A stretch of 32,377 bases of DNA from Candidatus Nutricula glyptotermitis (lineage in GTDB: Bacteria > Actinomycetota > Actinomycetes > Actinomycetales > Bifidobacteriaceae): NCBI GenBank assembly GCA_031263495.1, contig JAISFQ010000009.1, positions 1 through 32,377 on the forward strand, read 5' to 3'. The notes below the pieces were generated by a model. That model did not search any database and was not told where the DNA came from. It was given only the letters and a program-made list of their open reading frames with translations. The position numbers and the translations under genes were made by a program. This document shows positions 3,555-32,377 of this stretch, one piece after another (the stretch's first letter is position 1; every line of letters starts with the position of its first letter).

Positions 3555-4641
3555 ATTAATGAGTAGTGAGTAGTGAGTAAGGAGTAATGAGTAATGAGTA
3601 AGGAATAAGGAGTTTAGTTAATAGTTAACAGTTAATAGTTAATAATTGGGAATCGGAATTCGCTTTCGCTCATACTAGTTTTAAGATTCCGCATCTCGTT
3701 CGCTATGCTCACGGTGCGGAATTCAGAGTAGAAGTACTGCATGGCATTACGAGTACTTCTTGTCATCTAGCAATCGAGATTTATCTCGATGTCTGGGGAT
3801 CTTACAATATGTGTGAGCGTAAGCGAACTCCATAAAGATTAATAAACTAGCAACATTATTAATGTTTCATGGAATCGGCTAACGCCGATACTTTTGATTA
3901 AGATCCTCGGGCACTTCACTTTGCTCCGTTGAGGATGACAAAGAGCGTAGCAATGCGATTAAAGGAATTCATTTCATTCATGCTTTGATTGCTCGCTCCG
4001 CTCGCGGGAATCGGCATTCGCGTTGCGAATACTTTTATTGCTCACGTTTCACGTTCGCATTGCTTGGATTTTTCAATGTGAAAAATCCAAGCCTCTGCTG
4101 TGAAGTTACTTTTTTGTTTAAGAGTTACATTGCTTAAGAGTGGCTTGGCTTGCCATAGGCAAGCCAAGCCTAAGCGCAACTTTTCAAAAGAACGAGCGTA
4201 AGCGAAGTTGTTTTGAAAGTTGCGGAGTGAGAGTGTGAGCGTAAGCGAACTCCGATTTGTACGTAGCAAGCAGTACTTCTACTCAGAATTTAGCACCGAG
4301 GAACGAAGCGTAGCGTGATGCTGAATCTTAAAATAAAAGTATGAGCAATAGCGAATGCCTTTAATCGAATTGCTACGCAATAGGGTCGAATGCTCATTCG
4401 CATTCTCCTTTCAAGACCCCGCATCGGAGTGCGGGGTTCTGAGTGGGAGTAGTGCGGAATTCGGAGTGGGAGTGTGAGCGAGAACGAAACATGTGCACGG
4501 TAATTTTAAATCCCGTGTCGCGTGCTTCGTGCGCCACCTAGATGAGAATAGCATGCGTAGTGTGCTAACTCCGAATCAATTACTCATTACTCCTTACTAA
4601 TTATTAACTATTAATTGAGCGGAGCGATTAACTATTAACTG
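3555..4641. repeat. Gene-free repeat mosaic between ABC promoter and tetR end
   Basis: This stretch of about 1.1 kb has no credible gene. It starts with TAATGAG and TTAATAG heptamers (3557-3645), followed by ATTCCGCA/TGCGGAAT hairpin modules, a gtcatcctcaacgg-type module near 3905-3945 (reverse orientation), the three-hairpin element (4058-4225), and further modules and heptamers up to the tetR stop. The minus-strand frame at 4042-4269 is an artefact of the element. Confidence 0.75.
4058..4225 (+). repeat. Three-hairpin element, copy A
   Basis: Three stems follow one another. Stem 1 is CTTGGATTTTTC (4063-4074) with GAAAAATCCAAG (4080-4091). Stem 2 is GGCTTGGCTTGCC (4142-4154) with GGCAAGCCAAGCC (4158-4170). 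Stem 3 is GCAACTTTTCAAAA (4176-4189) with TTTTGAAAGTTGC (4211-4223). Other copies are B (5614-5782), C (18143-18309, reverse) and D (30858-31023); a fifth is cut by the window end (32362-32377). Stems 2 and 3 change on both arms together between copies. Confidence 0.75.
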
Positions 4642-5366: not shown

Positions 5367-5613
5367 AGTTTGAATAAGGAGTAAGGAATAATGAGTTTAG
5401 TTAATAGTTAATAGTTAATTATGAATAAGGAGTAAGGAATAATGAGTTTAGTTAATAGTTAATAGTTAATAATGAATAATTGGGAATCGGAATTCGCGTT
5501 GCGAATGCTTTCATTGCGCTGCGCTTCACGCACCGCGTTTGATAAGGAATTCATTTTATTCATACTCTAACAGCGCTGGCGTATGGTTTCGCCTACGGCG
5601 CAACAATACTTGC

Positions 5614-5782
5614 GCATTGCTTGGATTTTTCAGTATGAAAAATCCAAGCCTCTGCTGTGAAGTGACTTTTTGTTTAAGAGTTACTCTGCAGCAGAGTGGC
5701 TTGGCAAGGCTCAGACAAGCCAAGCCTTAGCGCAACATAAAAAACAACAAGCGAGTAGCGAAGTTGTTTTGTGTGTTGCGGG
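5614..5782 (+). repeat. Three-hairpin element, copy B
   Basis: The order of stems is as in copy A. Stem 1 has the same arms with a changed loop (agtat). Stem 3 is GCAACATAAAAAACAAC against GTTGTTTTGTGTGTTGC, a different sequence from copy A that still pairs. An extra pair, CTCTGCTG with CAGCAGAG, is visible between stems 1 and 2. Stem 2 is shortened to GGCTTGGC/GCCAAGCC. Confidence 0.7.
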
Positions 5783-13329: not shown

Positions 13330-13842
13330 ATTAATCTGTAACATTTAACAGTATTCGGCTCACTGCGCCTGTTATCTGGGTAGCGCGTGAAACGCGCGGC
13401 ACGAAATCTGAGTACATGACGGAATTCGCGCTTTGCGCTATCGCGCAGTTAATAATTAATCGCAACGCGCCAGTTAATAATGAGTAATGAGACTAGTTAA
13501 TAACGAATAGTTAATAGTTAATAATGAGTAATGAGTAAGGAATAATGAGTAATGAGTAATGAGTAATGAGTAATGGATGTGAGTTAATAGTTAATAACGA
13601 ACAGTTAATAACTGTTGGTAGGAGTTCGCGCGTTGCGCTCACGGGTTGTTTTAAGATTCCAGAGGGTCGAACGCTCATCCGCGTTCTCCTTCACAGAATT
13701 CAGAGGTGGAGTGTGCGGAATTCAGAATAGGAGTATTGCGCGGCACTAAGAGTGCTCCTTGCTGATGCAGATCCCGCATCGCATTCACTTGCGGGATGAC
13801 AAGTGGGGGGTATAAGTTGTGTTAACGATTTGTTACAAATTC
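13330..13842. repeat. Repeat mosaic upstream of the MATE gene
   Basis: No gene is seen. It includes a tatctgggtagcgcg module (13370 on), a GCGCTTTGCGC hairpin module, TTAATAG heptamers (13455-13530, 13585-13615), TAATGAG heptamers (13520-13575, about four perfect in a row), and a partial palindromic-element module (GATCCCGCA/TGCGGGATGAC, 13769-13801). Confidence 0.7.
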
Positions 13843-13878: not shown

Positions 13879-15252
13879 GTGTCTTTTATAAAATCGGCTC
13901 TGAAAAAGAGCAAGTATGACAAATCGATTCTCGCAATCTGGCTTCCGAGCGCTGCGAGTCTTTTGGTCTACCCGCTTTTCTACATCGTCGACACGGCGAT
14001 TGTGGGTCATCTTGGCACGCAGCAATTAGCGGGACTCGCGCTCGGTGCTTCCCTGATTTCGGCGATTACGGAAGTTTTTATGTTCCTAGGTTTTGCGACA
14101 ATATCGGCAGTTTCGATAAGTTTGGGGTTGGGCGACAAAAAACGCGCAATGCGGTTGGGACTTGATTCGATTTGGCTCGCAGTCGGAATCGGCATAGTCA
14201 TTTGGACATTATTGTACTTCTTTACTGACGAAATTATCAACGCATTTCTGTCCACAACGCATGAACAAAGTGCGCTCGAAGCAGGCGAATATGCATACAC
14301 ATACTTGAAAACCATATCGTGGAAAGTGCCTTTTGTGCTGATATCGTTCGCGTGTAATGGAGTTTTGCGCGGAATGCAACGCGTCAGGTTCTCGACCTTC
14401 GTGTCGATCGTGATGAGCGGGGTAAACATCGTGCTCAACTTCTATTTCGTCTACGGTTTGGACCTAGGCATAAAGGGCAGCGCGCTTGGCACATTAGTAG
14501 CGCAAGTTTTGGGTGGAATCGCACTGTTAATCGCAGTTATGCGTCACATTTTGCATGAGAAAGTCGGCATTATGCCAAGTTGGTCAGGGTTTGCAACCAC
14601 GCTTTCGACAGGTATTCCGCTGTTCATACGCTCACTTTGTCTATGGGCGACGATTGTGTTCCTAAACGCAGTAAGCATATATTTTGGAAGCGTGGCGTTG
14701 GCAGCGATGCAAGTAGTCGAATCGATATGGCTGTTTGGGTTGCTCACACTCGATGCACTCGCAATAGCCGCACAAACTTTAATCGCCGAAGCGATAGGCA
14801 AAAAGGACGAGAAACGCATTCAGGCACTGGTCAACCGCATTTTGCAAATCGCACTAATGACAGGCATACCTTTAATCTTTTTCCAGTTCATAATGGGCTA
14901 CTTTTCAATGCCAATGTTCACTGCCGATCCTGAAGTGCAATTTTATGGCATGCTCGCGTGCTTCGAAACTGGACTCATAGTCATGATTTGCGCTGTCACA
15001 TTTCCGCTCGACGGCGTACTTATGGCAGGCGAGGACATGAAATATCTCGCGAAAGTAGCATTCTTCGGCGCAGTACCGACTGTCATTCTCGTCCTAATCG
15101 CGCGCATCGCCTTGCCACCCGAACCTTGGGGCATCATCATCATATGGTTCATTTTCGACGGCGTTTACATCGGCATCCGCGCAATTCTCAACTATCGCCG
15201 TGTCAAGAGTAACGTGTGGTATAAGCATGCGATTGAGAGCGTTAGTAATTAG
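13879..15252 (+). CDS. MATE-family multidrug efflux transporter (DinF-like)
   Basis: A membrane exporter of about 457 residues with about 12 transmembrane helices in two homologous halves. WLPSAASLLVYPLFYIVDTA, VGHLGTQQLAGLALG and GFATISAVSISLGLGDKKRA are typical of the DinF-like branch of MATE transporters, which exchange cations for drugs or other toxic compounds. The frame is open back to a GTG at 13819, but that region contains the -35 and -10 boxes of the promoter (13843-13871), so I take the GTG at 13879 (VSFIKSALKKSKYDKS) and a leaderless mRNA. The last 20 bp of the gene region are copied downstream of the restriction-modification genes (17906-17925). The substrate is unknown. Confidence 0.9.
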   Translation: MSFIKSALKKSKYDKSILAIWLPSAASLLVYPLFYIVDTAIVGHLGTQQLAGLALGASLISAITEVFMFLGFATISAVSISLGLGDKKRAMRLGLDSIWLAVGIGIVIWTLLYFFTDEIINAFLSTTHEQSALEAGEYAYTYLKTISWKVPFVLISFACNGVLRGMQRVRFSTFVSIVMSGVNIVLNFYFVYGLDLGIKGSALGTLVAQVLGGIALLIAVMRHILHEKVGIMPSWSGFATTLSTGIPLFIRSLCLWATIVFLNAVSIYFGSVALAAMQVVESIWLFGLLTLDALAIAAQTLIAEAIGKKDEKRIQALVNRILQIALMTGIPLIFFQFIMGYFSMPMFTADPEVQFYGMLACFETGLIVMICAVTFPLDGVLMAGEDMKYLAKVAFFGAVPTVILVLIARIALPPEPWGIIIIWFIFDGVYIGIRAILNYRRVKSNVWYKHAIESVSN

Positions 15253-15460
15253 TAAGGAATAATGAGTAATGAGTAATGAGTAATGAGTAATGAGTAATGA
15301 GTAATGAGTAATGAGTAAGGAGTAATGAATAATGCTGTTAGTTAATAGTTAACAGTTAATAGTTAATAATTTGGAATCGGAATTCGCCTACGGCTCATAC
15401 TCCATCTCAGAATTCCGCACGTAGATGCGGAATCTTAATTAAAGTATTGCGTAGCAATGC
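15234..15460 (+). repeat. Left direct repeat flanking the R-M module
   Basis: It begins with tgagagcgttagtaattagt (15234-15253), the 3' end of the MATE gene, then heptamers, then an 89-bp stretch (15324-15412) identical to 17955-18043, then 48 bp (15413-15460) identical to 18065-18112. The right copy is at 17906-18112 and includes a 21-bp insertion. Confidence 0.85.
15260..15315 (+). repeat. (TAATGAG)8 heptamer tract
   Basis: Eight perfect tandem copies of TAATGAG follow the MATE stop, then imperfect units. Because the unit is 7 nt and contains stop codons, any three copies give stops in all three forward frames. The right flanking repeat has only about two or three units, so the number of copies varies. 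Confidence 0.9.
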
Positions 15461-17905: not shown

Positions 17906-18112
17906 TGAGAGCGTTAGTAATTAGTTAATGAATAAGGAGTAATGAGTAATGAATAATGAATAATGCTGTTAGTTAATAGTTAACAGTTAATAGTTAATAA
18001 TTTGGAATCGGAATTCGCCTACGGCTCATACTCCATCTCAGAACCCCGCACTCTCCCACTCTGAATTCCGCACGTAGATGCGGAATCTTAATTAAAGTAT
18101 TGCGTAGCAATG
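17906..18112 (+). repeat. Right direct repeat flanking the R-M module
   Basis: It starts with the same 20 bp as the MATE 3' end (17906-17925), then heptamers, then 89 bp (17955-18043) and 48 bp (18065-18112) identical to the left repeat. The copied MATE tail shows that the repeat is a duplication of the insertion site. Confidence 0.85.
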
Positions 18113-18142
18113 CAATTAAAGGAGTTCGCTCACGCTCTTACT

Positions 18143-18309
18143 CCGCAACTTTTCAAAACAACTTCGCTTGCGCTCGCTCTTTTGAAAAGTTGCGCTAAGG
18201 CTTGGCTTGGCTACGCCAAGCCAAGCCACTCTGCTGCAGAGCAACTCCCAGCCCAAAAGTAACTTTACAGCAGAGGCTTGGATTTTTCACATTGAAAAAT
18301 CCAAGCAAC
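18143..18309 (-). repeat. Three-hairpin element, copy C (reverse)
   Basis: In reverse orientation. Stem 2 is GGCTTGGCTTGGC with GCCAAGCCAAGCC, whose inner pairs differ from copies A and D but remain complementary. Stem 3 is GCAACTTTTCAAAA with TTTTGAAAAGTTGC. Stem 1 arms are identical to copy A. Confidence 0.7.
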
Positions 18310-19800
18310 GCACAACCCCAGTGGGCGCATAGCGCACGCTGATGCAGTGCTATAAAAGTATTCGCAACGCGAATTCCGATTCTTGCGAGCGAAGCAAGCA
18401 ATAAAAGCGTGAGCCGCTAGGCGAACTCCTTATCAAACGCGCTGCGTGCAACGCAGCGCAATAAAAGCGTGAAGGCATAGCCTGAACTCCGATTCAACCG
18501 CGTTGCGTGAAAGCGCAGCGCAATCAAAGTATTCGCAACGTGAATTCCTTCTACTATCCCAAAATCCAGATAGCGTCCCAATTTGTGTGTATTTTATGAA
18601 TCACTTTATAATTCTCGCAACAACCTCTCTCAGAGTTCCTGCGAAGGCAGGAATCTTAAAACGAAGTATCGGCGTTAGCCGATTCCATATCAAACGCACT
18701 CAGTGCAACGCAGTGTAATAAAAGTATTCGCAACGCGAATTCCGATTCTTGCGAGCGAAGCGAGCAATAAAAGCATTCGCAAAGCGAATTCCGATTCCCG
18801 CGAGCGAAGCGAGCGCAATAAAAGCGTGAGCCCATAGGGCGAACTCCTTATCAAACGCACTGCGTGAAACGCAGTGCTATCAAAGTATTCGCTATGCGAA
18901 TTCCGATTCCTGCGAGCGAAGCGAGCAATAAAAGCATGAGCGAAAGCGAATTCCGATTCAAACACACTGTGTGAAACGCAGTGCTATCAAAGTATTCGCA
19001 ACGCGAATTCCGATTCTTGCGAGCGAAGCGAGCAATAAAAGCGTGAGCCCATAGGGCGAACTCCTTATCAAACGCACTGCGTGAAACGCAGTGCTATCAA
19101 AGTATTCGCAACGCGAATGCCGATTCCCGCGAGCGAAGCGAGCAATAAAAGTATGAGCGAAAGCGAATTCCGATTCCTGCGAGCGAAGCGAGCAATAAAA
19201 GCGTGAGCCGCTAGGCGAACTCCTTATCAAACGCGCTGCGTGCAACGCAGTGCTATCAAAGCATGAGCGAATTCCTTTAATTGCATTGCTACGCCCTTTG
19301 TCATCCTCAACGGAGCAAAGCGAAGTGCCCGAGGATCTTAATCAAAAGCATCGGCGTTAGCCGATTCCATTTCCCGCGAGCGAAGCGAGCAATCAAAGTG
19401 TGAAGGCGTCAGGCGAACTCCTTATCAAACGCGTTGCGCGAAAGCGCAACGCAATAAAAGCATGAGCGAAAGCGAATTCCGATTCAAACGCACTGCGTGA
19501 AACGCAGTGCTATCAAAGTATTCGCGAAAGCGAATGCCGATTCCCGCGAGCGAAGCGAGCAATCAAAGTATTCGCAACGCGAATTCCGATTCCCGCGAGC
19601 GAAGCGAGCAATCAAAGTATTCGCAACGCGAATTCCGATTCCCGCGAGCGAAGCGAGCGCAATAAAAGTATGAGCGAAAGCGAATTCCTTATAATTGCAT
19701 TGCTACGCCCTTTGTCATCCTCAACGGAGCAAAGCGAAGTGCCCGAGGATCTTAATTAAAAGTATCGGCGTTAGCCGATTCCATTTCCCGCGAGCGAAGC
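18310..19800. repeat. Array of short variable-stem palindromes
   Basis: About 1.5 kb is made almost wholly of alternating modules. One has a hairpin such as GCACTGCGT/ACGCAGTGC. A second is gattcccgcgagcgaagcgagcaataaaag. A third is a short hairpin between aaaagYRT and gaaYtcc, with stems such as TTCGC/GCGAA, GCCC/GGGC or AGGC/GCCT. Longer modules (gtcatcctcaacggagcaaag ... gaggatctta) occur at about 19309-19340 and 19714-19753. No gene is present; the long minus-strand frames at 18690-19245 are repeats translated. Confidence 0.8.
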
Positions 19801-19920
19801 GAGCGCAAAAAACAAGACCAACCCAACAGAAAGAAACCAACCCCAGCCATAGCAAGCGCGGTAGCGCACCCACCCACCCCCAACCACCCCAAAAACGAAA
19901 TAAACAACAAATAGAGTTCG
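19801..19920. repeat. C/A-rich module, inverted relative to 30310-30523
   Basis: AACAAGACCAACCCAACAGA and catagcaagcgcggtagcgc (19850-19869) recur on the opposite strand at about 30460-30500 and 30320-30345 respectively. The right-hand version is split and rearranged. These partial inverted repeats bracket the giant surface gene. Confidence 0.6.
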
Positions 19921-20219: not shown

Positions 20220-20309
20220 ATGTCAACACAAAAAATAACCTCTCCAATTAAGGGGGGGGGGGGGGCACACCTTATGCCCCAAAGTATAACAAGGCGCACT
20301 TTAACGTGA
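20220..20309 (+). CDS. Poly-G leader ORF of the surface protein (phase switch)
   Basis: The ATG at 20220 follows AAGGAGG at a normal distance. With 14 G, the ORF reads MSTQKITSPIKGGGG, then AHLMPQSITRRTLT, and stops at TGA 20307-20309, overlapping the GTG (20306) of the main gene as GTGA. With 12 or 15 G the leader fuses in frame through TPYAPKYNKAHFNVKRLL to the signal peptide. With 13 G it stops early (TAA). The design copies the leader at 538: the same 32-nt ATG-to-tract distance, the same CACACC after the tract, a similar peptide, and a PKYxK motif in the fused frame. Confidence 0.78.
   Translation: MSTQKITSPIKGGGGAHLMPQSITRRTLT
20252..20265 (+). repeat. Poly-G tract, 14 G (contingency locus)
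   Basis: Fourteen G after ATTAA, followed by CACACC. The tract starts 32 nt after the A of the leader ATG, exactly as at 570-583. It sets whether the leader is fused, coupled or cut off from the surface-protein gene. Confidence 0.85.
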
Positions 20310-23300
20310 AACGCCTACTTTCGCAAGTTCTAGCAGTAACTTTATTGGGTGCTACGCTTGTTTCTGTTCCAACGAATGTAAATGCAGCACCGCCAACCAA
20401 TTTTGCTGATGTGGCTCAATGCTATAACACAAGTAGCAATCAATTTGAAGATTCGTCAAATAGTGGTAAGTGCGGAGGGCAGGGCTCAAATCAAGAAGCA
20501 TTCGTGCTTGAAGTTGTTACGACTGCATCGAACCAAACTGCCTACATTCCCGTTAGAGCAGTAAGTACTGGTCCAGATATTTATAACGTTTCATACAACT
20601 GGGATATTAATTGGGGCGATACTACGGAAGAGACTAAAACTGGTGTTAGTGACAACCCTGTCGCTTTTCACCTCTCGCACCAATACACAACCGCAGGCAC
20701 ATATAACATAGTCATCACTCCAAAGGACGATGCTGCGCTAGGCTGGCTAGACGCATTTGGCAGATATAGCAGTACAACCTACAGTGCTGGTATAACGAGA
20801 ATCCTAACGCCATTTCCTGAGCTTTCAAGAACGCCAAGAGCCAATGCGTTTTATCAGACTTTCCAGCAAATGCAAGACGCTAAAAACTTGCCAGAAAACT
20901 TATTCTGGGGAATTAACACATCACAGTTAACAGACTTTTCGAACATGTTCAGCAGCACTTTTTCAAACTATGCATACAAAGCCGCCGCATTAACAGACGT
21001 GACAATCCCAGAAAATTTGTTTAGTGAACTAGATACTACATCTGGAATCACTTTCTCAAATATGTTCAATAGCACTTTCACCTATTACGCACACTCAAAC
21101 ACTGCCGCAACAAGCATAGCAATTCCAGAAGATTTGTTCGAATCAATTAACACATCAAACGGGACGACTTTCACTTCTATGTTCAGTAACACTTTCGACC
21201 ATGCATATTACTCTAATGTTAACGCAGTCACAGCAGCAATCCCAGAAGGTTTGTTTAGCGAAATCGACACATCAAACGGGACGACTCTCAATTCCATGTT
21301 CCAAGACACTTTCACCTATTATGCATACTCAAACACTGCAGCCACAGACGTTTCAATCCCAGAAGATTTGTTCGAATCAATTAACACATCAAGTGCAACT
21401 AATCAAAGTTCTATGTTCAATAACACTTTCTTCGATTACGCATACTCAAACACTACAGACGCAGACATTTCAATTCCAGCAAAGTTATTTCAATCAATTG
21501 ACACAGAAACTGCAACTAACCTAAGTTATATGTTCAGCAATACTTTCAACAACTATGCCTACTTAGATACTGCAGCAACAGATATATCAATCCCAGAAGG
21601 CTTATTTGATACAATAAAAACACCTAAAAATGTGACCTTCAATTATATGTTCCGAGGCACTTTCAATGGTTATGCAAGCAACGCACCAGTTGGAGCAAAG
21701 CAAAGTGCAACAATCCCAGAAGAATTATTCGAGGCTCTTGATTTTACTGCGGGAACGCTTTTTTCTAATATGTTCCAAGATACTTTCCTAAACTATGCAA
21801 ATCAGCGAAAAGTAACCTTTGATACAGGACAAGGCTCATTTACCAACGACCCTGACAATCCTCAGACATTATCAGGCAACGCATTCGGAGTAAAAGCAGA
21901 TAATGCATCTCCAAGCGCTAACCCGACACTCGACAAAAATTCGAAAGATATAAAGCCAGCATATAATAATAACACAGGATTAACGGTTCAAGATCCAGGC
22001 GTTCCACAATTACAAAACAGTGCGTTTAAAGGCTGGTATTTGGATGCCGATTTTTACGATCCATTTGACCTTACTGTAAACAGATTATTTGCGTCCGACA
22101 CAAGCACAGAAGTAAGCGATGCAACTCTGTATGCCAAATTCCAAATATTAGCCGCTCAAACAGTGCCAGATAATTGGGAAAGTCCTGTCTTTTGCTATGA
22201 TTTCACGACATTTGCTCCAACTACCAAAACTGATGATGCGTGCGGAGGAATAAGCGCAACAGAAGAAGAAGGCTTTATATTAGAAGCACAAGTCGAAGAA
22301 AACGATGAAGTCAATATTCCAGTTGCAGGAAAAACGCACAACAATGCTTTTGGCGTTCCATACAATTGGAGAGTGGATTGGGATGATGGTCGCGAAACAG
22401 TCACAGGAGAGCAAATTTCCGCTGCTAGCAAAGTAATCACTCATAAATATACAGAGGAAGGAACGTACCAAATCAGGATAACTCCGATTGATATTGATGC
22501 TACTGTTTTAGGATGGTTTGACGCATTTGGCAGCCTTACTTCTGGTGCTGACACAAAAATAACAAGGATTCTGACGCCATTTTCTGCTCTTGCCAAAACT
22601 CCAAGACCTTACGCATTCTATGAAACTTTCTATAACTTCCAAAATATGCAAAACTTGCCAGCAAACCTGTTTATTTCAGTAGACACAAAAAACGTGCAGG
22701 ACTTTTCTTATATGTTCCACCGCACTTTTGCAAATTATGCACGCGTGAGTGAAGCGGATGATTTAGCAATCACAGATGATTTATTTAATACAATAGACAC
22801 ATCAAACGGAACTAATTTCTCTCTTATGTTCTGCCAAACTTTCTCTGATTTTGCAAGGGACGTATCAACTGATTTGAAACTAAGTTTAACGATTCCATTA
22901 GATTTGTTCGCTGATCTTGTTGTTTCAAATGGAACGACTTTTACGTATATGTTCGAAGGAACTTTTGGTGGCTACGCAAACATAAGAGAAGTAACTTTTG
23001 ACTTAGATGGCGGAACACTTCCAGATGACCCTGCCAATCCTCAAACTTTATTAAACAACACATGGGGTGTAAAAGCAGATAATGCAACGACAGGATTAAC
23101 TAATCCACAAATCACAAAAGATTCAACAAACATAAAGCCATCATACAATGTAGGGCTATCTGTCACAAATCCAGGAAACCCGACTAAAGCAGATAATTTG
23201 TTTAGAGGCTGGTATCTTGATAGTAACTTTGAATTTCCATTTAACATTACGACAGATAAAGTCTACACATCTGATATAAGCACATTGGAAACTGATGTGC

Positions 23301-26300
23301 ATTTATACGCAAAGTTTATAAGCGATTCTAGCGTATACGTGCCAGATACTTGGGCAGATGATGCTTATTGCTACGATTTCAACGCTGGAACGTCAGATTA
23401 TTCATACACTGACCCCTGCGGAGGAAACGGAAGTACAGATAAAGAAGGCTTTATATTAGAGGCGACAGTCGAAGCAGGAGATGATGTTCTGATTCCGGTC
23501 GCAGGAAAGGACGAAAACAATGCTTTCGGCGTTCCATACAATTGGAGCATAGATTGGGATGATGACGCTGTCACTGAAACGACTGAATTAACTTCTGCTA
23601 GAAACAAAACAATCTCGCACAAATATCAAACAGCAGGAACTTATCAAATCAAGATAACTCCAGCACAAACTCCGTCAAGTGCAGGCTGGTTTGATGCATT
23701 TGGAGGTCTTAGTTCTGTTGACACAAAGATAACTAGAATCCTGACGCCATTCTCTGTTTATGCAAGAACTCCACGACCTTATGCTTTCTATCAAACTTTC
23801 CAGAATTTCCAAAACATCCAAAACTTGCCAGAAAACTTATTTGCAGGAGTTGATACAAAGAGTTTAACTATTTTCTCAAGCATGTTCCGTGAGACTTTCT
23901 TAAACTATGCTTACAATACTCAAGCAGAAGACATATCGATTCCAGCAGATCTATTCGCTGAATTAGACACAGAGGAGGCAACTAACTTCTCTAGCATATT
24001 CCAAAGCACTTTCTCAGGTTTTGCGTATTCTAACACAAAAGCAGAGGACATATCAATCCCAGAAGGTTTATTTGACGCACTTGATGGAGAAAAAGTAACT
24101 AATTTCTCAAGCATGTTTCGTGAGACTTTTGCTAATTATGCGTATTCTGCGACAAATGAAGTGAAAGCAGAGGCAACGATTCCAGAGGAGCTGTTTGCTG
24201 AAATTAGCGTGAGTGCTGGAACAAGTTTTGGTTATATGTTCCAGAACACTTTCCAAAATTATGCGAACAAGCGTAAGGTAGAGTTCAATTTAGATGGTGG
24301 TGCACTTCCAGATACTTCTAGCAATCCACAGATATTGTCAGGCATTAATGCTTGGGGAGTTGCAGCAAGCACTGCAGAAGCAGGAGCTAATCCAAGAATC
24401 ACTAAAGATTCTGATGATATAAAGCCCTCGTATAACAATGAAACAGGGTTATCCGTCGCTAATCCTGGGAATCCCACTAAAACTTCTACTACGTTTATTG
24501 GCTGGTATGCAGATGACCAATTTGAAACTCTGTTTACGTTTACAACAGATAAAGTATATACTGCCGACGTGGATACAGATACGAACGCTGTGACTTTGTA
24601 TGCAAAATTCCTAACAATCACGGCGCAAACTGTTCCAAGCACTTGGTCTGCGGATGCTTTATGCTATGATTTTGTGGGTTTCGCACCAACTGATGCTAAT
24701 GATGCTTGCGGAGGAGAAGGTAACACGAAGGAGGAAGGCTTTATACTCCAAGTCACTACGACAGCAGAAAATGAAAGTGCTTCTATTCCGGCTGCTGGAG
24801 TTAGCGGAACCCAATGGGGTGCGCCAGTGTATAATATCCCATTCAACTGGACTATCGAATGGGGAGATAGCAGCGCTAGGACTGTAACAGGCGTTTCGTA
24901 TTCGTATCTTTACACTGTAATCTCTCACGTCTATAAAGAAGCAGGAACTTATCAAATTAAGATAACTCCGACTGGGGAAGCCGAAGCGGGTTGGTTTGAT
25001 GCATTTGGCTATGGAACTGCTACAAACAATGCTAACATAACTCGCATTCTAACTCCATTTTCCAAACTCGCAAGAACTCCAAGGGCGTACATGTTTTATT
25101 ATACTTTCAGCAATATGCAAAACATTCTAAACCTACCAGAAAACTTGTTTGAAGGAGTCGACACATCAAAAGTGATAGACTTTTCTAATATGTTCAATTA
25201 CACTTTCTTTAACTACGGTTATAATGGTGCTAACTTGCAAAATATGCAGATTCCAGAAGATTTATTTGCGGAATTGGACACAGGAGATGGAGAAAACTTC
25301 TCGTATATGTTCCAGAGAACTTTTGAGCAGTATGCGCGTATGAATACCTCAGTAAATGACACATCGATTCCAGAAGGTTTATTTGCGGAATTGGACACAG
25401 AAAGTGGAACTAATTTCTCATATATGTTTGACAGCACTTTCTTAAACTATTTCTATATGAACGGTGCATCAGCTGACATAGAGCTTCCAGAAGAATTGTT
25501 TGAATCAATCGACACATCAAGTGGAGAAAACTTTTCTCATATGTTTAACAGAACTTTTGCATATTATGCTCAGGCTGGTAACGATGACCAAGTCGAGATA
25601 GCGATTCCAGAAGGTTTGTTTGCATCAATCGACACATCAAATGGAAAAGATTTATCGTACATGTTCACAGAAACCTTCCGTCAATATGCCTATCGCGCCA
25701 CAGGAGAAGATGCAAGCAACTCACCTCTAATCCCAGACAAGTTGTTTGAAGCAATCAACACAAAAAGTGGAACTGATTTCTCTTACATGTTCTATAACAC
25801 TTTCAATTCTTATGCTTATGCTAACACAGAACTTAGCGTAAAAATTCCAGGCGAATTGTTTAGCAAAGTAGATACATCAAACGGAGAAAACTTCTCTAAC
25901 ATGTTCTATGGCACTTTCCAAAGTTTTGCTGATAATGCTGCATATTCATCCGACATCAAGATTCCAGAAGAGTTATTTAACTCGATATATACGGGGAATG
26001 GCAAAAACTTCTCGTATATGTTCGCCTACACTTTTGGAAATTACGTCGGCTCTAATGCTACTGCAACAGATGTAACAATCCCAGAAGGCTTGTTTAGTTC
26101 ATTAGACACAACAAACGGTGAGAATTTTGCTTATATGTTCCAAAGCACTTTCAATGGCTATGCTTCATTGGCAAAAGCAACAGACATATCAATTCCGGAA
26201 AACTTATTTGCTGGATTAGATACTACAAATGGAAAGAACTTTACTGGAATGTTCTTTGCAACTTTCGTATACTATGGAAATGGAGCGACAGATGCTGTAA

Positions 26301-29300
26301 AAGCAAGTGCAACGATTCCAGAAAACCTGTTCTCTGGCATTAAAGTAACGAATGGAGCGACCTTTACTGACATGTTCAATGGACCTTTCACTAACTACGC
26401 AAACAAGCGAAAAGTGACTTTTGAGTTAGGTAATGGAAATTTTTCAGGTAGCCCTGATAATCCTCAGATATTAACCAATAACGCTTGGGGAGTAAAGGCA
26501 GGCACTGGAGCACCAGCAATGAACCCTACAATCGACAAAAACTCTGTAAACATAAAGCCATCGTATTACAATAGCACGGGATTGCCTGTTGCAGATCCAG
26601 GTGAAGTGACTAATAGCAGTGGGACATTTGAAGGTTGGTATAAAGATGACGCAGCAGCAAGTCGATTTATCATTGGCACAGACAAGTTATACACAAACGA
26701 TGTGAGCACAGAGGAGAATAATTTGACTTTGTATGCTGGATATGGTTATACATTGACATATAACGCAAACTCTGGCACTGGAAATGCACCCACTGGAATT
26801 GTCTCATGCGCTCTGAAACCTGGCGATTCTTCCTGTGAAATAACTGTCCTAGATAACGCAGGGTTTGAAAAGAAAGGCTTTACATTCACTGGCTGGAACA
26901 CTCAGGCTGACGGCACGGGAGATGCTTACGTTGCAGGTGACAAAATATCCATTAGTAGCAATGGTGAAATATATGCTGTTTGGGAAGCCAACACATACAC
27001 TCTAACCTATAACGGAAATGGCAACACTGGAGGCACTCAGCCTACTGGACCTCATACATGCACAGTTACGCAAGACACATGCGATATAGATGTCGCAGGT
27101 AACACAGGGGATTTTGTCAAAACAGGTTACACATTTGACACGTGGAACACTCTTGCTAACGGTTCGGGTAATGATTATACAGCAGATGCCAAGATAACCA
27201 TGGACGGCGACGCTGAGCTCTATGCTAAATGGAACGCTGACACTTATACGATAGAATTTGACTTAACAAGTGCTGAAAATAATGATGCTGAATGCGCTCA
27301 ATTTGATGTAACATATGATGTGGCTGTGCCGTCATTTACTTGCACCGTGCCTCCCACTAAGGCAAATCATGCAGTTGATGGCTGGCAAATTGGAAGCACT
27401 GATATTACGCTGTTTGATGAAAACGGTGCTATTATAAAAGGTGTTAGCGGCTATACAGACGCTTCGGGCAAATGGATAAACGCAGATGGTGGTGTGACGC
27501 TAGAGCCAAAATGGAAAGTTACGGCTTATACAGTAACGTTTGTTTCTAATGATGGGACAAGTGTTCCTCCTAAAACAGTGCCAGTAGGCGAAACAGTGGA
27601 TAAGCCAGATGATCCTACTAAGACTGATTACACATTTGTTGCTTGGTATAGTGACATCGATTTGCAAACTGAGTGGGACTTTGAAACAGACCTTATAACA
27701 GAGGATGTTGCTCTATACGCTAAATGGGTTATTACCACTTATACTGTTTTGTTCAATTCTGCTGGCGGAACGGATGTTGAGTCTAAAACAGTGCAAACAG
27801 GCGAAAAAGTAGATAAACCAGATGACCCTACTAGGACCTATTACACATTTGATGCTTGGTATAAAGATGACGCTTTGCAAACTGAGTGGGACTTTGGAAC
27901 AGACGTTGTAACAGGAAACATTACTCTATACGCTAAGTGGATTATTGACACTTATACTGTTTCGTTTGTTTCTAATGATGGGACGAGTGTTCCTTCTAAA
28001 ACAGTGCAAGTAGGCGAAAAAGTGGCTAAACCAGATGATCCTACTAGGCTTTATTACACATTTGTTGCTTGGTATAAAGACATTGATTTGCAAACTGAGT
28101 GGAACTTTGCAACAGACGTTGTAACAGAGGATGTTATTTTATATGCGAAGTGGGTTATTGACACTTATACTGTTTCGTTTGATTCTGATGGTGGAACGAG
28201 TATTGCTCCCAAAACAGTGCAAGCAGGCGAAAAAGTAGATAAACCTGTTAATCCAACTAAGGCTGATTACACATTTGTTGCTTGGTATAAAGATTCTGCG
28301 CTACAAACTGAGTGGAACTTTGGAACGGACATAGTAACAAGCGATATTACATTATATGCCAAGTATATGTATATTTCACCCACACCCACACCCACTCCTC
28401 CTACTCCTGCTTCAAAAGATGCACCTACTCCAACTGGCGTCAAACTCGCTACGACAGGTAAGGCAAATGAACTAAAAGTCACTTGGAGTGTCCCTAGTGC
28501 TAATAATGTTGCTAGTTTCAAAGTAACGCTGGACAATGTATTAGGAACTGCGAAGAACGAATCTATTTTGTCTGCTGTTCAAGAAACAGTAAGCATAACT
28601 GTTCAGGCAAATAAACGAGAGGCTATATTCACTAATGTGCCTACGGGAACGTACAGAGTGTCTGTTCAAGCGATTGCTAAAAGTGGAGGAAAATCGTCGG
28701 CTATCATTTGGTCCAACCAACTCTTACATAAATTAGATGTTGCGAAAACATATAGTTTCGTAGATTTAAAGGGCGTTGCGAAAGATAGAGCAAATGATAT
28801 TGCTTGGTTATCTTCTGTCGGAGTAACTATTGGAACTAATTGTAATGCGGATGGCACAGGTTCTGCTTGCAAGTACAACCCAACTACTTCGGTAAATAGA
28901 GGTGCTATGGCAGAGTTTCTATACAAATTGTCTGGAAAAACTGTGACAGTGAACAAGATTCCAAAGATTTCGGATATATCTAAACTTACTACTCCTAGGA
29001 AAGATGCTATAAAATGGCTAGCATCAGAAGGAATTACTGTATTATCAAGCGGTAAGTATAATCCGCAAAACACAGTAAACAGAGGAGCAATGGCTGAGTT
29101 CATGTATAAACTTGCAGGTCATCCTGGAAGTGTCAAGTATGGAGACGCAAAAAGCGACCACGTGGATCCAAAGACAGTTGTGGCACAGGAAAAGATACTC
29201 AAAAATGACAAAAAACTCCAAGCACTGAAGAAGTCCAATCCGAACCGTTACTACGACATTCTATGGCTTGCAAAGATGAACATTACTGTGCCGATTGATG

Positions 29301-29425
29301 GAAAATACTACAATCCACAGAGCGCGGTAAACAGAGGAGCAATGGCTCAATTCATGCATAAACTGTACTATGTTATGATGACTGGACAAGCAGTACCTGC
29401 AAGTGGTGATGTACCTAATGTATAA
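20306..29425 (+). CDS. Giant repeat-built surface protein with SLH-like C-terminus
   Basis: A secreted protein of 3039 residues. The signal peptide (MKRLLSQVLAVTLLGATLVS, cleavage likely at VNA-A, about 29) is followed by four similar modules starting near residues 38, 628, 1025 and 1452. Each has a header with two cysteines (CYDF...CGG), a PKD-like domain (W-I-D-W-G-D ... HKYxxAGTYQIKITP), then a row of about 39-residue units, I-P-E-x-L-F-x-x-I-D-T-S ... F-S-x-M-F-x-x-T-F-x-x-Y-A, resembling DUF285/BspA-like repeats (8, 3, 4 and 11 units), and an InlB B-repeat-like end. Further B-repeats follow, including four of 71 residues (27524-28375), then a Pro/Thr linker (about 2690-2712), an FnIII-like domain, and three actinobacterial SLH-like repeats (VNRGAMAEF). 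It has no LPXTG motif. It is likely an adhesin held to the wall by the SLH-like part. The GTG start has only a weak upstream site; expression depends on the leader at 20220. Confidence 0.88.
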   Translation: MKRLLSQVLAVTLLGATLVSVPTNVNAAPPTNFADVAQCYNTSSNQFEDSSNSGKCGGQGSNQEAFVLEVVTTASNQTAYIPVRAVSTGPDIYNVSYNWDINWGDTTEETKTGVSDNPVAFHLSHQYTTAGTYNIVITPKDDAALGWLDAFGRYSSTTYSAGITRILTPFPELSRTPRANAFYQTFQQMQDAKNLPENLFWGINTSQLTDFSNMFSSTFSNYAYKAAALTDVTIPENLFSELDTTSGITFSNMFNSTFTYYAHSNTAATSIAIPEDLFESINTSNGTTFTSMFSNTFDHAYYSNVNAVTAAIPEGLFSEIDTSNGTTLNSMFQDTFTYYAYSNTAATDVSIPEDLFESINTSSATNQSSMFNNTFFDYAYSNTTDADISIPAKLFQSIDTETATNLSYMFSNTFNNYAYLDTAATDISIPEGLFDTIKTPKNVTFNYMFRGTFNGYASNAPVGAKQSATIPEELFEALDFTAGTLFSNMFQDTFLNYANQRKVTFDTGQGSFTNDPDNPQTLSGNAFGVKADNASPSANPTLDKNSKDIKPAYNNNTGLTVQDPGVPQLQNSAFKGWYLDADFYDPFDLTVNRLFASDTSTEVSDATLYAKFQILAAQTVPDNWESPVFCYDFTTFAPTTKTDDACGGISATEEEGFILEAQVEENDEVNIPVAGKTHNNAFGVPYNWRVDWDDGRETVTGEQISAASKVITHKYTEEGTYQIRITPIDIDATVLGWFDAFGSLTSGADTKITRILTPFSALAKTPRPYAFYETFYNFQNMQNLPANLFISVDTKNVQDFSYMFHRTFANYARVSEADDLAITDDLFNTIDTSNGTNFSLMFCQTFSDFARDVSTDLKLSLTIPLDLFADLVVSNGTTFTYMFEGTFGGYANIREVTFDLDGGTLPDDPANPQTLLNNTWGVKADNATTGLTNPQITKDSTNIKPSYNVGLSVTNPGNPTKADNLFRGWYLDSNFEFPFNITTDKVYTSDISTLETDVHLYAKFISDSSVYVPDTWADDAYCYDFNAGTSDYSYTDPCGGNGSTDKEGFILEATVEAGDDVLIPVAGKDENNAFGVPYNWSIDWDDDAVTETTELTSARNKTISHKYQTAGTYQIKITPAQTPSSAGWFDAFGGLSSVDTKITRILTPFSVYARTPRPYAFYQTFQNFQNIQNLPENLFAGVDTKSLTIFSSMFRETFLNYAYNTQAEDISIPADLFAELDTEEATNFSSIFQSTFSGFAYSNTKAEDISIPEGLFDALDGEKVTNFSSMFRETFANYAYSATNEVKAEATIPEELFAEISVSAGTSFGYMFQNTFQNYANKRKVEFNLDGGALPDTSSNPQILSGINAWGVAASTAEAGANPRITKDSDDIKPSYNNETGLSVANPGNPTKTSTTFIGWYADDQFETLFTFTTDKVYTADVDTDTNAVTLYAKFLTITAQTVPSTWSADALCYDFVGFAPTDANDACGGEGNTKEEGFILQVTTTAENESASIPAAGVSGTQWGAPVYNIPFNWTIEWGDSSARTVTGVSYSYLYTVISHVYKEAGTYQIKITPTGEAEAGWFDAFGYGTATNNANITRILTPFSKLARTPRAYMFYYTFSNMQNILNLPENLFEGVDTSKVIDFSNMFNYTFFNYGYNGANLQNMQIPEDLFAELDTGDGENFSYMFQRTFEQYARMNTSVNDTSIPEGLFAELDTESGTNFSYMFDSTFLNYFYMNGASADIELPEELFESIDTSSGENFSHMFNRTFAYYAQAGNDDQVEIAIPEGLFASIDTSNGKDLSYMFTETFRQYAYRATGEDASNSPLIPDKLFEAINTKSGTDFSYMFYNTFNSYAYANTELSVKIPGELFSKVDTSNGENFSNMFYGTFQSFADNAAYSSDIKIPEELFNSIYTGNGKNFSYMFAYTFGNYVGSNATATDVTIPEGLFSSLDTTNGENFAYMFQSTFNGYASLAKATDISIPENLFAGLDTTNGKNFTGMFFATFVYYGNGATDAVKASATIPENLFSGIKVTNGATFTDMFNGPFTNYANKRKVTFELGNGNFSGSPDNPQILTNNAWGVKAGTGAPAMNPTIDKNSVNIKPSYYNSTGLPVADPGEVTNSSGTFEGWYKDDAAASRFIIGTDKLYTNDVSTEENNLTLYAGYGYTLTYNANSGTGNAPTGIVSCALKPGDSSCEITVLDNAGFEKKGFTFTGWNTQADGTGDAYVAGDKISISSNGEIYAVWEANTYTLTYNGNGNTGGTQPTGPHTCTVTQDTCDIDVAGNTGDFVKTGYTFDTWNTLANGSGNDYTADAKITMDGDAELYAKWNADTYTIEFDLTSAENNDAECAQFDVTYDVAVPSFTCTVPPTKANHAVDGWQIGSTDITLFDENGAIIKGVSGYTDASGKWINADGGVTLEPKWKVTAYTVTFVSNDGTSVPPKTVPVGETVDKPDDPTKTDYTFVAWYSDIDLQTEWDFETDLITEDVALYAKWVITTYTVLFNSAGGTDVESKTVQTGEKVDKPDDPTRTYYTFDAWYKDDALQTEWDFGTDVVTGNITLYAKWIIDTYTVSFVSNDGTSVPSKTVQVGEKVAKPDDPTRLYYTFVAWYKDIDLQTEWNFATDVVTEDVILYAKWVIDTYTVSFDSDGGTSIAPKTVQAGEKVDKPVNPTKADYTFVAWYKDSALQTEWNFGTDIVTSDITLYAKYMYISPTPTPTPPTPASKDAPTPTGVKLATTGKANELKVTWSVPSANNVASFKVTLDNVLGTAKNESILSAVQETVSITVQANKREAIFTNVPTGTYRVSVQAIAKSGGKSSAIIWSNQLLHKLDVAKTYSFVDLKGVAKDRANDIAWLSSVGVTIGTNCNADGTGSACKYNPTTSVNRGAMAEFLYKLSGKTVTVNKIPKISDISKLTTPRKDAIKWLASEGITVLSSGKYNPQNTVNRGAMAEFMYKLAGHPGSVKYGDAKSDHVDPKTVVAQEKILKNDKKLQALKKSNPNRYYDILWLAKMNITVPIDGKYYNPQSAVNRGAMAQFMHKLYYVMMTGQAVPASGDVPNV
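27524..28375 (+). repeat. Four tandem 213-bp coding repeats (B-repeats)
   Basis: Four copies with a period of 213 nt (71 codons), starting at about 27524, 27737, 27950 and 28163. Each encodes TYTVxFxSxxGT ... KTVQxGEKVDKPDDPT ... AWYKD ... LQTEW ... LYAKW. They are similar enough in DNA to recombine, so copy number may vary between strains. Confidence 0.85.
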
Positions 29426-29460
29426 GTAAAGATTCGGAGTTCGCCTCACGCCTCACGCTT

Positions 29461-29570
29461 TTATAGCGCAATAAATATAACACTAGCCTATGGCTAGTGT
29501 TATATTTGCGCAAGCACTGCAACGTTACACTGGGCTTATACAAACCAATCAAAATGTTTTTTGCTTGTCA
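29461..29570 (+). repeat. Hairpin-bearing repeat, copy 1 (pairs with 29859-29970)
   Basis: It contains a long hairpin: AATATAACACTAGCC-type arms at 29466-29488 and 29492-29511 with loop TAT. Then follow gcaagcactgc, aacgttac, and aaaccaatcaaaatgttttt. Because it lies just after the surface-gene stop, it may act as its terminator, but no U-run directly follows the stem. Confidence 0.75.
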
Positions 29571-29858
29571 TCTAGGTAGCGCGTGAAACGTTTTTTTGTT
29601 TGTCATCTAGGTAGCGCGTAGCGCGACACGGGATCTAAGTACACAAAGAATTCGCCTAACGGCTCATACTCCACCTCAGAATTCCGCACACTCCCACTCA
29701 GAATTCCTGCGTAGGCAGGAATCTTAAACAGGAGAACGCGGATGAGCGTTCGACCCTATTGCGTAGCAATGCAATTAAAGGCATTCGCATAGCGAATACT
29801 TTGATAGCACTGCGCTCCACGCAGTGCGTTTGATTCGGCATTCATTTCATTCATACTC

Positions 29859-29970
29859 TTATAGCGCAATAAATATAACACTAGCCTTTGGCTAGTGTTA
29901 TATTTCGCGCAAGCACTGCTGTAACGTTACTCTGGGCTTACACAAACCAATCAAAATGTTTTTTGCTTGT
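29859..29970 (+). repeat. Hairpin-bearing repeat, copy 2
   Basis: The same hairpin (29864-29910) with loop TTT instead of TAT, and the same right part up to ttttttgcttgt, after which the copies diverge. At the divergence point a different structured sequence begins (29953-30070). Confidence 0.75.
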
Positions 29971-30070
29971 TCTAGGCATCAGCACCATTACCTCCACCAC
30001 ATCGCAATTCTTGCGCTTTTGGTGGAGATATGGCACAGATGCTTTTACGAACCGCGCATAAAAACATTTT
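29953..30070. ncRNA. Candidate structured RNA: long nested hairpin
   Basis: Five arm pairs nest in order: AAAATGTTTTT (29953-29963) with AAAAACATTTT (30060-30070); GCATC (29976-29980) with GATGC (30038-30042); CCAT (29985-29988) with ATGG (30030-30033); CTCCACCA (29992-29999) with TGGTGGAG (30020-30027); CGCA (30003-30006) with TGCG (30012-30015). Five nested pairs in about 118 bp are unlikely by chance. I recognise no known RNA family; it could also be the remnant of a palindromic mobile element. The strand is undecided. Confidence 0.45.
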
Positions 30071-30151: not shown

Positions 30152-31137
30152 ACTCTGATAGCGCCTAGCGTTGCCTTCGCGTTACTTTGTTTAATAAGTT
30201 ACTGCAGATTATTTTGAAGTTAATCTACTTTTAAGTTACTGCTCTCAGATTTCGCAACTTGGCGCATTCTAACTCTTCGCTAAGTTTATGCTTTGTGTAT
30301 AAAGTTGTTTCTTCGCTTTTGTGGGTGCGCTACCTAGCTTGCTATGGTTGGGGTGGGTTTCTTTGTGTTAGTACTCCCACTCAGAACCCCGCACTCCGAT
30401 GCGGGGTCTTAAAACAAAGCGTGAGCGTAAGCGAACTCAATTTGTTGTTTTATTTTGAGTTGGGTTCTTTCTGTTGGGTTGGTCTTGTTTTTGTTGGTCT
30501 CTTTTCTGCGCTCGCTTCGCTCGCGCCCTTTGTCATCCTCAACGGAGCAAAGCGAAATGTCTGAGGATCTTAATCAAAAGTATCGGCGTTAGCCGATTCC
30601 CGTACTCTAATGTACATGAGTTCGCGCTTCGCGCTCACACATTTATTAAGATTCCGCATCACGCTACACTACGTTTCGCGGTGCGGAATTCAGAGCAGAA
30701 GTAGTGAGCGATAGCGAACACAAACAATGGAATTCATTTCATTCATGCTCTTATTGCGGTGCGTTTCACGCACCGCGGTTGATTCGGAGTTCAGGCTGCG
30801 CCTTCACGCTTTTATTGCGCTGGCGTATGGTTTCGCCTACGGCGCAACAATACTTGCGCATTGCTTGGATTTTTCAATGTGAAAAATCCAAGCCTCTGCT
30901 GTAAAGTAACTTTTGGACTAAGAGTTACTCTGCAGCAGAGTGGCTTGGCTTGCCTATGGCAAGCCAAGCCTTAGCGCAACATAAAAAACAACAAGCGTAG
31001 CGAAGTTGTTTTGTGTGTTGCGGAGTAAAAGCGAGAGCAATAGCGAACTCAGATTTGTACTTAGCAGCAGAAGGGTGAACTCCGTTTTGTACGCATTGCT
31101 ACGCAATACTTTTTCGCACCTAGCGAGAAGCACTCCC
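30152..31137. repeat. Gene-free repeat mosaic before the YhhQ-like gene
   Basis: No credible gene. aagttactg-type phrases recur at 30196-30245. The inverted counterpart of the C/A-rich module (30310-30523) follows, then a gtcatcctcaacggagcaaag module (30531 on), ATTCCGCA hairpins, the GCGGTGCGT/ACGCACCGC hairpin (30756-30776), and three-hairpin copy D. Confidence 0.7.
30858..31023 (+). repeat. Three-hairpin element, copy D
   Basis: Stem 1 arms and loop are as in copy A. Stem 2 is GGCTTGGCTTGCC with GGCAAGCCAAGCC. Stem 3 is as in copy B (GCAACATAAAAAACAAC with GTTGTTTTGTGTGTTGC). CTCTGCTG pairs with CAGCAGAG between stems 1 and 2. The preceding module gctggcgtatggtttcgcc is shared with copies B and E. 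Confidence 0.72.
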
Positions 31138-32108: not shown

Positions 32109-32377
32109 GTGATTTTGGTGTTTTAAGTTTGTAGCATATAATAATGAGTAATTAGTAAGGAATAATGAGTAATGAGACTAGTTAATAACGAATAGTTAAT
32201 AGTTAATAGTTGCGCTCGGCGCGCCTCGCGCGGGAATCGGAATTCACTCTCGTTCATACTCTGATTGCTCGCTTTCGCTCGCATTAAAAGGAGTTCAGGC
32301 TACGCCTTCACGCTTCTATTGCGCTGGCGTATGGTTTCGCCTACGGCGCAACAATACTTGCGCATTGCTTGGATTTT
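32109..32377. repeat. Repeat mosaic at right edge, with cut three-hairpin copy E
   Basis: TAATGAG and TTAATAG heptamers (32142-32210) are followed by short palindromic modules, the gctggcgtatggtttcgcc module (32321 on) and the first 16 bp of a further three-hairpin element (32362-32377), cut by the window end. No gene is seen. Confidence 0.7.

Follow-up and report, generated by a model that had tools for sequence, protein, structure and literature searches.

The window analysed here, a stretch of 32,377 nucleotides that forms contig C100 of the draft genome of Candidatus Nutricula glyptotermitis, carries actinobacterial genes, topA, tmk and holB among them; the closest relatives of its TopA are found in the Actinomycetales including the Bifidobacteriaceae, at an identity of about 50% or less. 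N. glyptotermitis is a termite-associated member of the Bifidobacteriaceae with a completeness-corrected genome size of 2.01 Mbp and 43.5% GC (PMC11707648), and the draft genome itself comprises 1,546,520 bases in 157 contigs, is 76.95% complete and has 43% GC. A sequence-only reading of the window had reported four full copies and one cut copy of a hairpin-rich repeat, and all five were located at the positions claimed for them (Table 1). A search of the draft genome with a 20-base core pattern, allowing up to 3 mismatches, gave 150 matches (70 forward and 80 reverse) against none for the reversed-pattern control; the repeat is present in at least 150 copies in this one genome of a termite-gut symbiont, and 104 near full-length copies out of the 150 core matches make up the aligned set. 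The contigs C5, C23, C37 and C88 as well as the window itself (at copy E) start or end in or beside a copy, which makes the repeat one likely cause of the fragmentation of the assembly into 157 pieces.

Table 1. Coordinates of the repeat copies, their hairpins and modules, and other features
Feature	Position	Strand	Remarks
Copy A	4058-4225	+	Core element
Left flanking module (inverted h1) of copy A	4013-4038	-	
H1 of copy A	4062-4092	+	14-bp arms GCTTGGATTTTTCA / TGAAAAATCCAAGC, loop ATG
M of copy A	4093-4140	+	Imperfect stem beginning CTCT; missed by the sequence-only reading
H2 of copy A	4142-4170	+	Base constant (GGCTTGGC/GCCAAGCC); tip variable and compensated (TTGCC-ATA-GGCAA)
H3 of copy A	4176-4223	+	Block allele T1; inner loop GAGC-GTAA-GCGA
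Right flanking module (h1) of copy A	4225-4253	+	GTGAGC-GTAA-GCGAAC
Copy B	5610-5781	+	Core start 5614; H3 type T2; H2 tip non-complementary
Copy C	18141-18311	-	Core 18143-18311; H3 type T1; H2 tip TTGGC/GCCAA
Tandem array of two-hairpin units beside copy C	18330-19810	+	Other repeats interrupt in places
Copy D	30854-31027	+	Core start 30858; H3 type T2
Copy E	32362-32377	+	First 16 bases only; contig end cuts the rest
Seven-base-type repeats	3557-3655, 5391-5489, 13480-13620, 15218-15380, 17926-18010, 32121-32211		TAATGAG/TAGTTAA/TAAGGAG
Second dispersed element	~29450-29620, ~29860-30030		Long AT-rich hairpin TAGCGCAATAAATATAACACTAGCC...GGCTAGTGTTATATT
Poly-G tracts	569-588, 20251-20270		12-15 G, close to short-ORF starts
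Gene for 3039-aa repetitive protein	20306-29425		
AbiP2-type reverse transcriptase	L253:859-2433	-	PADLOC E = 1.8e-146

Among the genomes searched, the element is confined to this one. The core pattern gave no match in 58 other genomes, 36 of them from Bifidobacteriaceae, and none in the plasmid and phage collections; neither the GTDB genomes nor IMG/VR, both of which may lack the window's own genome, contain an exact H1 palindrome, and the tandem-array modules gave in relatives a single 21-base match, at chance level, in genome G008. In a 160-kb sample of the draft, sequence recurring within the sample accounts for 15% of the total and 58% of the intergenic DNA, compared with 0-1.6% and 0-7%, respectively, by the same measure in five relatives, whose samples were smaller than 160 kb; a bigger sample favours the detection of repeats, though not on the scale observed.

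The core measures about 170 bp (168 bp in copy A) and is built in the order H1-M-H2-H3. Three hairpins had been claimed for it and all three exist, but the true count is four, since the segment M folds too. Folded as RNA, copy A reaches -79.5 kcal/mol, whereas its dinucleotide shuffles give -44.2 ± 4.0 kcal/mol (z = -8.9) and none of 200 folds as well; folding it as DNA gives z = -8.4. Both strands fold well as RNA, the minus strand at -67.5 kcal/mol. Across the copies the arms of H1 are nearly invariant, and its loop is hypervariable and present in both orientations.

The core sits in a composite of about 280 bp that consists of an inverted mini-hairpin module, a left hairpin, H1-M-H2-H3 and an outward mini-hairpin module, and that is usually nested in longer arrays of related modules. 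By a strict pattern, flanking h1 modules were found on the right side of 98 of 104 copies, directly after H3, and on the left side of 74 of 95, where the inverted h1 lies mostly 19-21 or 42-56 bases from the core; most of the misses look like failures of the pattern. These end modules vary, and they are also found core-free in tandem arrays, alternating with h2 hairpins, so they are not unique termini; in the array beside copy C, the units combine an h1 mini-hairpin with h2 hairpins such as GCGAGCGAAGCGAGC or CACTGCGTGAAACGCAGTG. Modules of the main h1 class follow the scheme T-GA-stem-loop-stem-GA-A(C/T); their stems differ in sequence and length (GC, AT, GCC, AGGC, GCACGC and others) yet stay complementary. 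Both closing pairs are formed in 273 of 279 h1 modules, against 140 ± 6 by arm-swap, and the closing pairs are present in 56 of the 62 distinct interiors, against 36 ± 2.4. The flank modules, which lie outside the coordinates of the sequence-only reading, are the clearest case of compensation in the data.

Other sequences share this intergenic space. The left module sometimes precedes a different sequence beginning (A/G)TTGCTACCGC (L056, L065, L075, L077, L122 and L004), a second dispersed element lies in a similar module context (Table 1), and seven-base-type repeats edge many of the intergenic arrays, between the gene and the hairpin modules.

Compensation in the core was assessed against arm-swap, column-shuffle and slid controls, the first two of which do not adjust for kinship among the copies. 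Standard pairs make up 92.1% of the pair cells in 70 aligned copies, and both sides are changed in 131 cells, where column shuffles give 60 ± 5 and slid controls at most 45. The number of pairs that show a double change is not in excess (9 versus 8.9 in shuffles); independent compensatory events may therefore be few and spread by conversion. With about 100 copies, the arms of H1 pair better than expected by arm-swap (z = -13), and so do those of H2 (z = -12.6, and z = -8 within length and tip classes). The reported change of stem 2 from TTGCC/GGCAA to TTGGC/GCCAA is real, and the compensated tips of H2 number at least four, TTGAC/GTCAA and AAGAC/GTCTT being the others. The 3′ tip arm of H2 is missing in about 16 of 102 copies, and the window itself holds a counter-example to compensation in copy B, where the arms of stem 2, AAGGC/GACAA, are not complementary. 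Hairpin M shows no covariation (arm-swap z = +1.8, about 100 copies) and keeps G.U pairs on the plus strand. For H3, the alleles of 101 copies comprise 51 T1/T1, 42 T2/T2 and 8 hybrids with mismatched arms; the link of the inner-loop base to the arms (V 0.83-0.88) is as strong as that between the arms themselves (V 0.83), which indicates that H3 is mainly two haplotype blocks and that its arm changes reflect block exchange. The within-class arm-swap signal of H3 is weak (z = -2.6 to -2.8), and its second form, GCAACATAAAAAACAAC/GTTGTTTTGTGTGTTGC, contains one T.G wobble and one A.G mismatch. The change in both arms of stem 3 that had been quoted as compensation thus exists, but mainly as two block alleles plus the hybrids. 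The wider proposal that selection or some mechanism keeps the fold stands for H1, H2 and the flank modules, all of which beat arm-swap, but not for M, which gave no signal, or for the block-like H3.

The loops of the 279 h1 modules are GNA in 135, GNRA in 64 and GNYA in 54, making 253 GNA/GNNA loops together; the stems are mostly G-C rich, and 45 of them are AT/AT and hence fall outside the GNA/GNNA mini-hairpin motif. Loops of this type on at least two G-C pairs give DNA mini-hairpins of exceptional stability; GCGAAGC, for example, melts at 78 °C (PMC4686876). The flank modules share the GNA/GNNA loops and the mostly G-C stems of that d(GCGAAGC) class, which is a biophysical motif and no repeat family, whereas here the motif recurs hundreds of times within a tandem G.A frame. 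The window contains 48 occurrences of the pattern GA-stem-GN(N)A-stem-GA, where 2.5 would be expected; two sampled relatives are near expectation. Left of the core the GA strand is the minus strand in 216 cases and the plus strand in 12; right of the core it is plus in 135 and minus in 16, and inside the core plus in 50 and minus in none. The folding-prone strand switches at the element, and the GA strand shows no relation to the strand on which the nearest gene lies (58 to 56).

Outside H3, alleles of neighbouring modules are only weakly associated (V mostly 0-0.36), which indicates that the copies are mosaics; some of this mosaicism could be repeat misassembly in a draft MAG. Three-base loop spacers occur both ways round, in H1 (GTA 44 and TAC 10; TTC 14 and GAA 9) and in H2 (ATA 19 and TAT 6), as expected if perfect palindromes invert, and partial duplications of the H3 end are found downstream of some copies. 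Mosaicism, two-way spacers and partial duplications fit template switching and conversion among copies. We propose that the element is, with fair probability, the conserved central part of a dispersed DNA-hairpin repeat that is non-coding and non-autonomous and is homogenised by recombination and template switching; its spread we infer from the pattern of the copies. A DNA-hairpin mobile element was one of two readings offered earlier, and it is the best fit. In such a process the hairpins would form in single-stranded DNA, at replication gaps or as extruded cruciforms, and one arm of a hairpin would template the other, the arms staying matched while the loops drift. Loop spacers would invert, and modules would be duplicated, swapped and re-joined as copies interact through template switching and gene conversion. 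Because no Y1/RAYT or rve-type transposase was found, we attribute the amplification to DNA hairpins undergoing replication and recombination, or else to an activity that may have been lost or may be missing from the draft genome. A more specific version, which we offer tentatively and hold to be unlikely, is that the modules are kept as one-strand ssDNA mini-hairpins that switch strand at the 168-bp core, and that they propagate and diversify without a transposase via arm-templated repair and template switching as the DNA is replicated; if true, this would be a bacterial counterpart of the organellar hairpin elements.

The main rival to the hairpin-recombination account is a MITE- or REP-like element moved in trans by a transposase that has been lost, is encoded by the 23% of the genome absent from the draft, or is of a non-Y1, non-rve family. 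Such an element would explain the inverted module at each end, the lack of coding capacity, the high copy number and the intergenic location, and REPs elsewhere are thought to behave in this way (PMC3733652). The genome also encodes, by inspection, one XerC/D-like and three phage-integrase-like tyrosine recombinases, and the latter count in favour of this rival; the array-module motif lies near only one of the tyrosine recombinases. A look for a RAYT-like or other transposase had been suggested, and none was found among the two types sought: Y1/RAYT (PF01797) gave no match in the 77%-complete genome, with 5 of 14 control genomes positive, and no rve-type transposase was detected in the same draft. 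In the publication on this lineage, too, none of the MAGs is reported to hold transposable elements (PMC11707648), yet repeats make up more than half of the sampled intergenic DNA here. Against a transposase acting on defined ends stands also the core-free occurrence of the end modules in tandem arrays, and we regard this rival as possible but rather doubtful.

Two further candidates were considered and rejected. A reverse transcriptase is disfavoured as the agent, the sole one found being AbiP2, a defence gene (Table 1) beside which lies a gene with no assignment. SbcD, part of the hairpin-cutting nuclease SbcCD, was not found in the draft and is missing from most of the sampled genera of the family; those of them that were sampled for repeats show no such expansion, and loss of SbcCD would be at most permissive.

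According to the second rival, the element is a structured RNA or cis-regulatory element whose plus strand is transcribed and whose stems are maintained because selection acts on the fold of the RNA. The greater stability of the plus-strand RNA, the tolerance of hairpin M for plus-strand G.U pairs and the covariation in H1 and H2 speak in its favour; the same selection would be expected to act on M, which shows no covariation, and it would have to accommodate the loss of the H2 tip arm and the mismatched H3 arms in the copies counted above. RNA hairpins are expected to prefer GNRA over GNYA loops, and such a preference is not clearly seen in the 279 h1 modules. The Rfam covariance models gave no match at gathering score in the window, and related genera, among the 58 other genomes searched, hold no equivalent. 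The 104 near full-length copies are apparently all intergenic and occur in every gene configuration; where both neighbouring genes were seen, 14 are convergent, 12 divergent and 13 and 11 tandem, and nine overlaps involve ORFs of 110-130 aa that we judge to be spurious open frames in arrays. The copies have no preferred position or orientation relative to genes, and a role in gene regulation or as a terminator is disfavoured by this lack of orientation bias. The novel structured RNA family suggested by the sequence-only reading has found little positive support, and we consider it improbable.

Least probable of all, and in our judgement very unlikely, is that the copies are neutral debris of an old repeat homogenised by gene conversion, a few alleles having been copied around with no hairpin-dependent process: H3 alleles travelling as blocks, the lack of any excess over shuffles in the number of doubly changed pairs and the mosaic copies all agree with it, but the 62 distinct flank interiors with freely varying yet complementary stems, the persistence of H2 compensation within length and tip classes and the spacers in both orientations do not.

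Read as a DNA-hairpin repeat, the element appears by analogy to work most like the hairpin-forming repeats of organelles, and less closely like REPs or MITEs. The double-hairpin elements of fungal, algal and sponge mitochondrial DNA, whose mode of spread is unknown or disputed, are likewise short, non-coding and intergenic, with one to three hairpins, and fill the intergenic regions of some lineages while differing or being absent in relatives (PMC2800124), a distribution similar to that seen here. Unlike them, the present element resides on a bacterial chromosome and has a larger, four-hairpin core, a composite with GA-framed GNA mini-hairpins and a strand switch, the comparison being one of features and not of sequence. 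With REPs and BIMEs it shares the intergenic location in bacteria, the high copy number of palindromes, alternative complementary stem residues and the suspicion of being non-autonomous mobile DNA (PMC3733652). However, REPs are 20-40 bp long, carry a GTAG tag and usually have a RAYT gene, whereas here the core of about 170 bp has four hairpins, Y1 was not found, and no constant GTAG tag was recognised at the ends of the aligned copies; by the features tested, the element is not a REP. The M1 and M2 repeats of pithoviruses are also palindromic, massively colonise non-coding DNA in ordered clusters and have no certain transposase (PMC10664404), but they are viral single long palindromes with 47-54 bp arms and a putative TA target duplication, in contrast to the bacterial four-hairpin mosaic described here. 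Size, the four-hairpin core, the GA/GNA modules and the strand switch set the element apart from these known kinds. Its compensating stems and DNA-type loops provide a clean case for asking whether hairpin repeats can propagate and maintain their fold with no transposase involved; the same can be asked of the organellar hairpin elements.

Two other features of the genome are recorded here. Tracts of 12-15 G lie near the start of short ORFs, both in the window (Table 1) and on other contigs (L258-L266), and the ORFs share the motif ...KGGGG(A/H/T). A length of 13 or 15 G keeps a long frame open at two loci (L259 and L258), and 14 G close the frame elsewhere; the tracts resemble phase-variable leaders of genes for membrane or surface proteins. 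Directly downstream of one such tract in the window lies the gene for a repetitive protein of 3039 aa. This protein matches the List-Bact repeat eight times and, less strongly, SLH and PKD, and is likely a giant surface protein.
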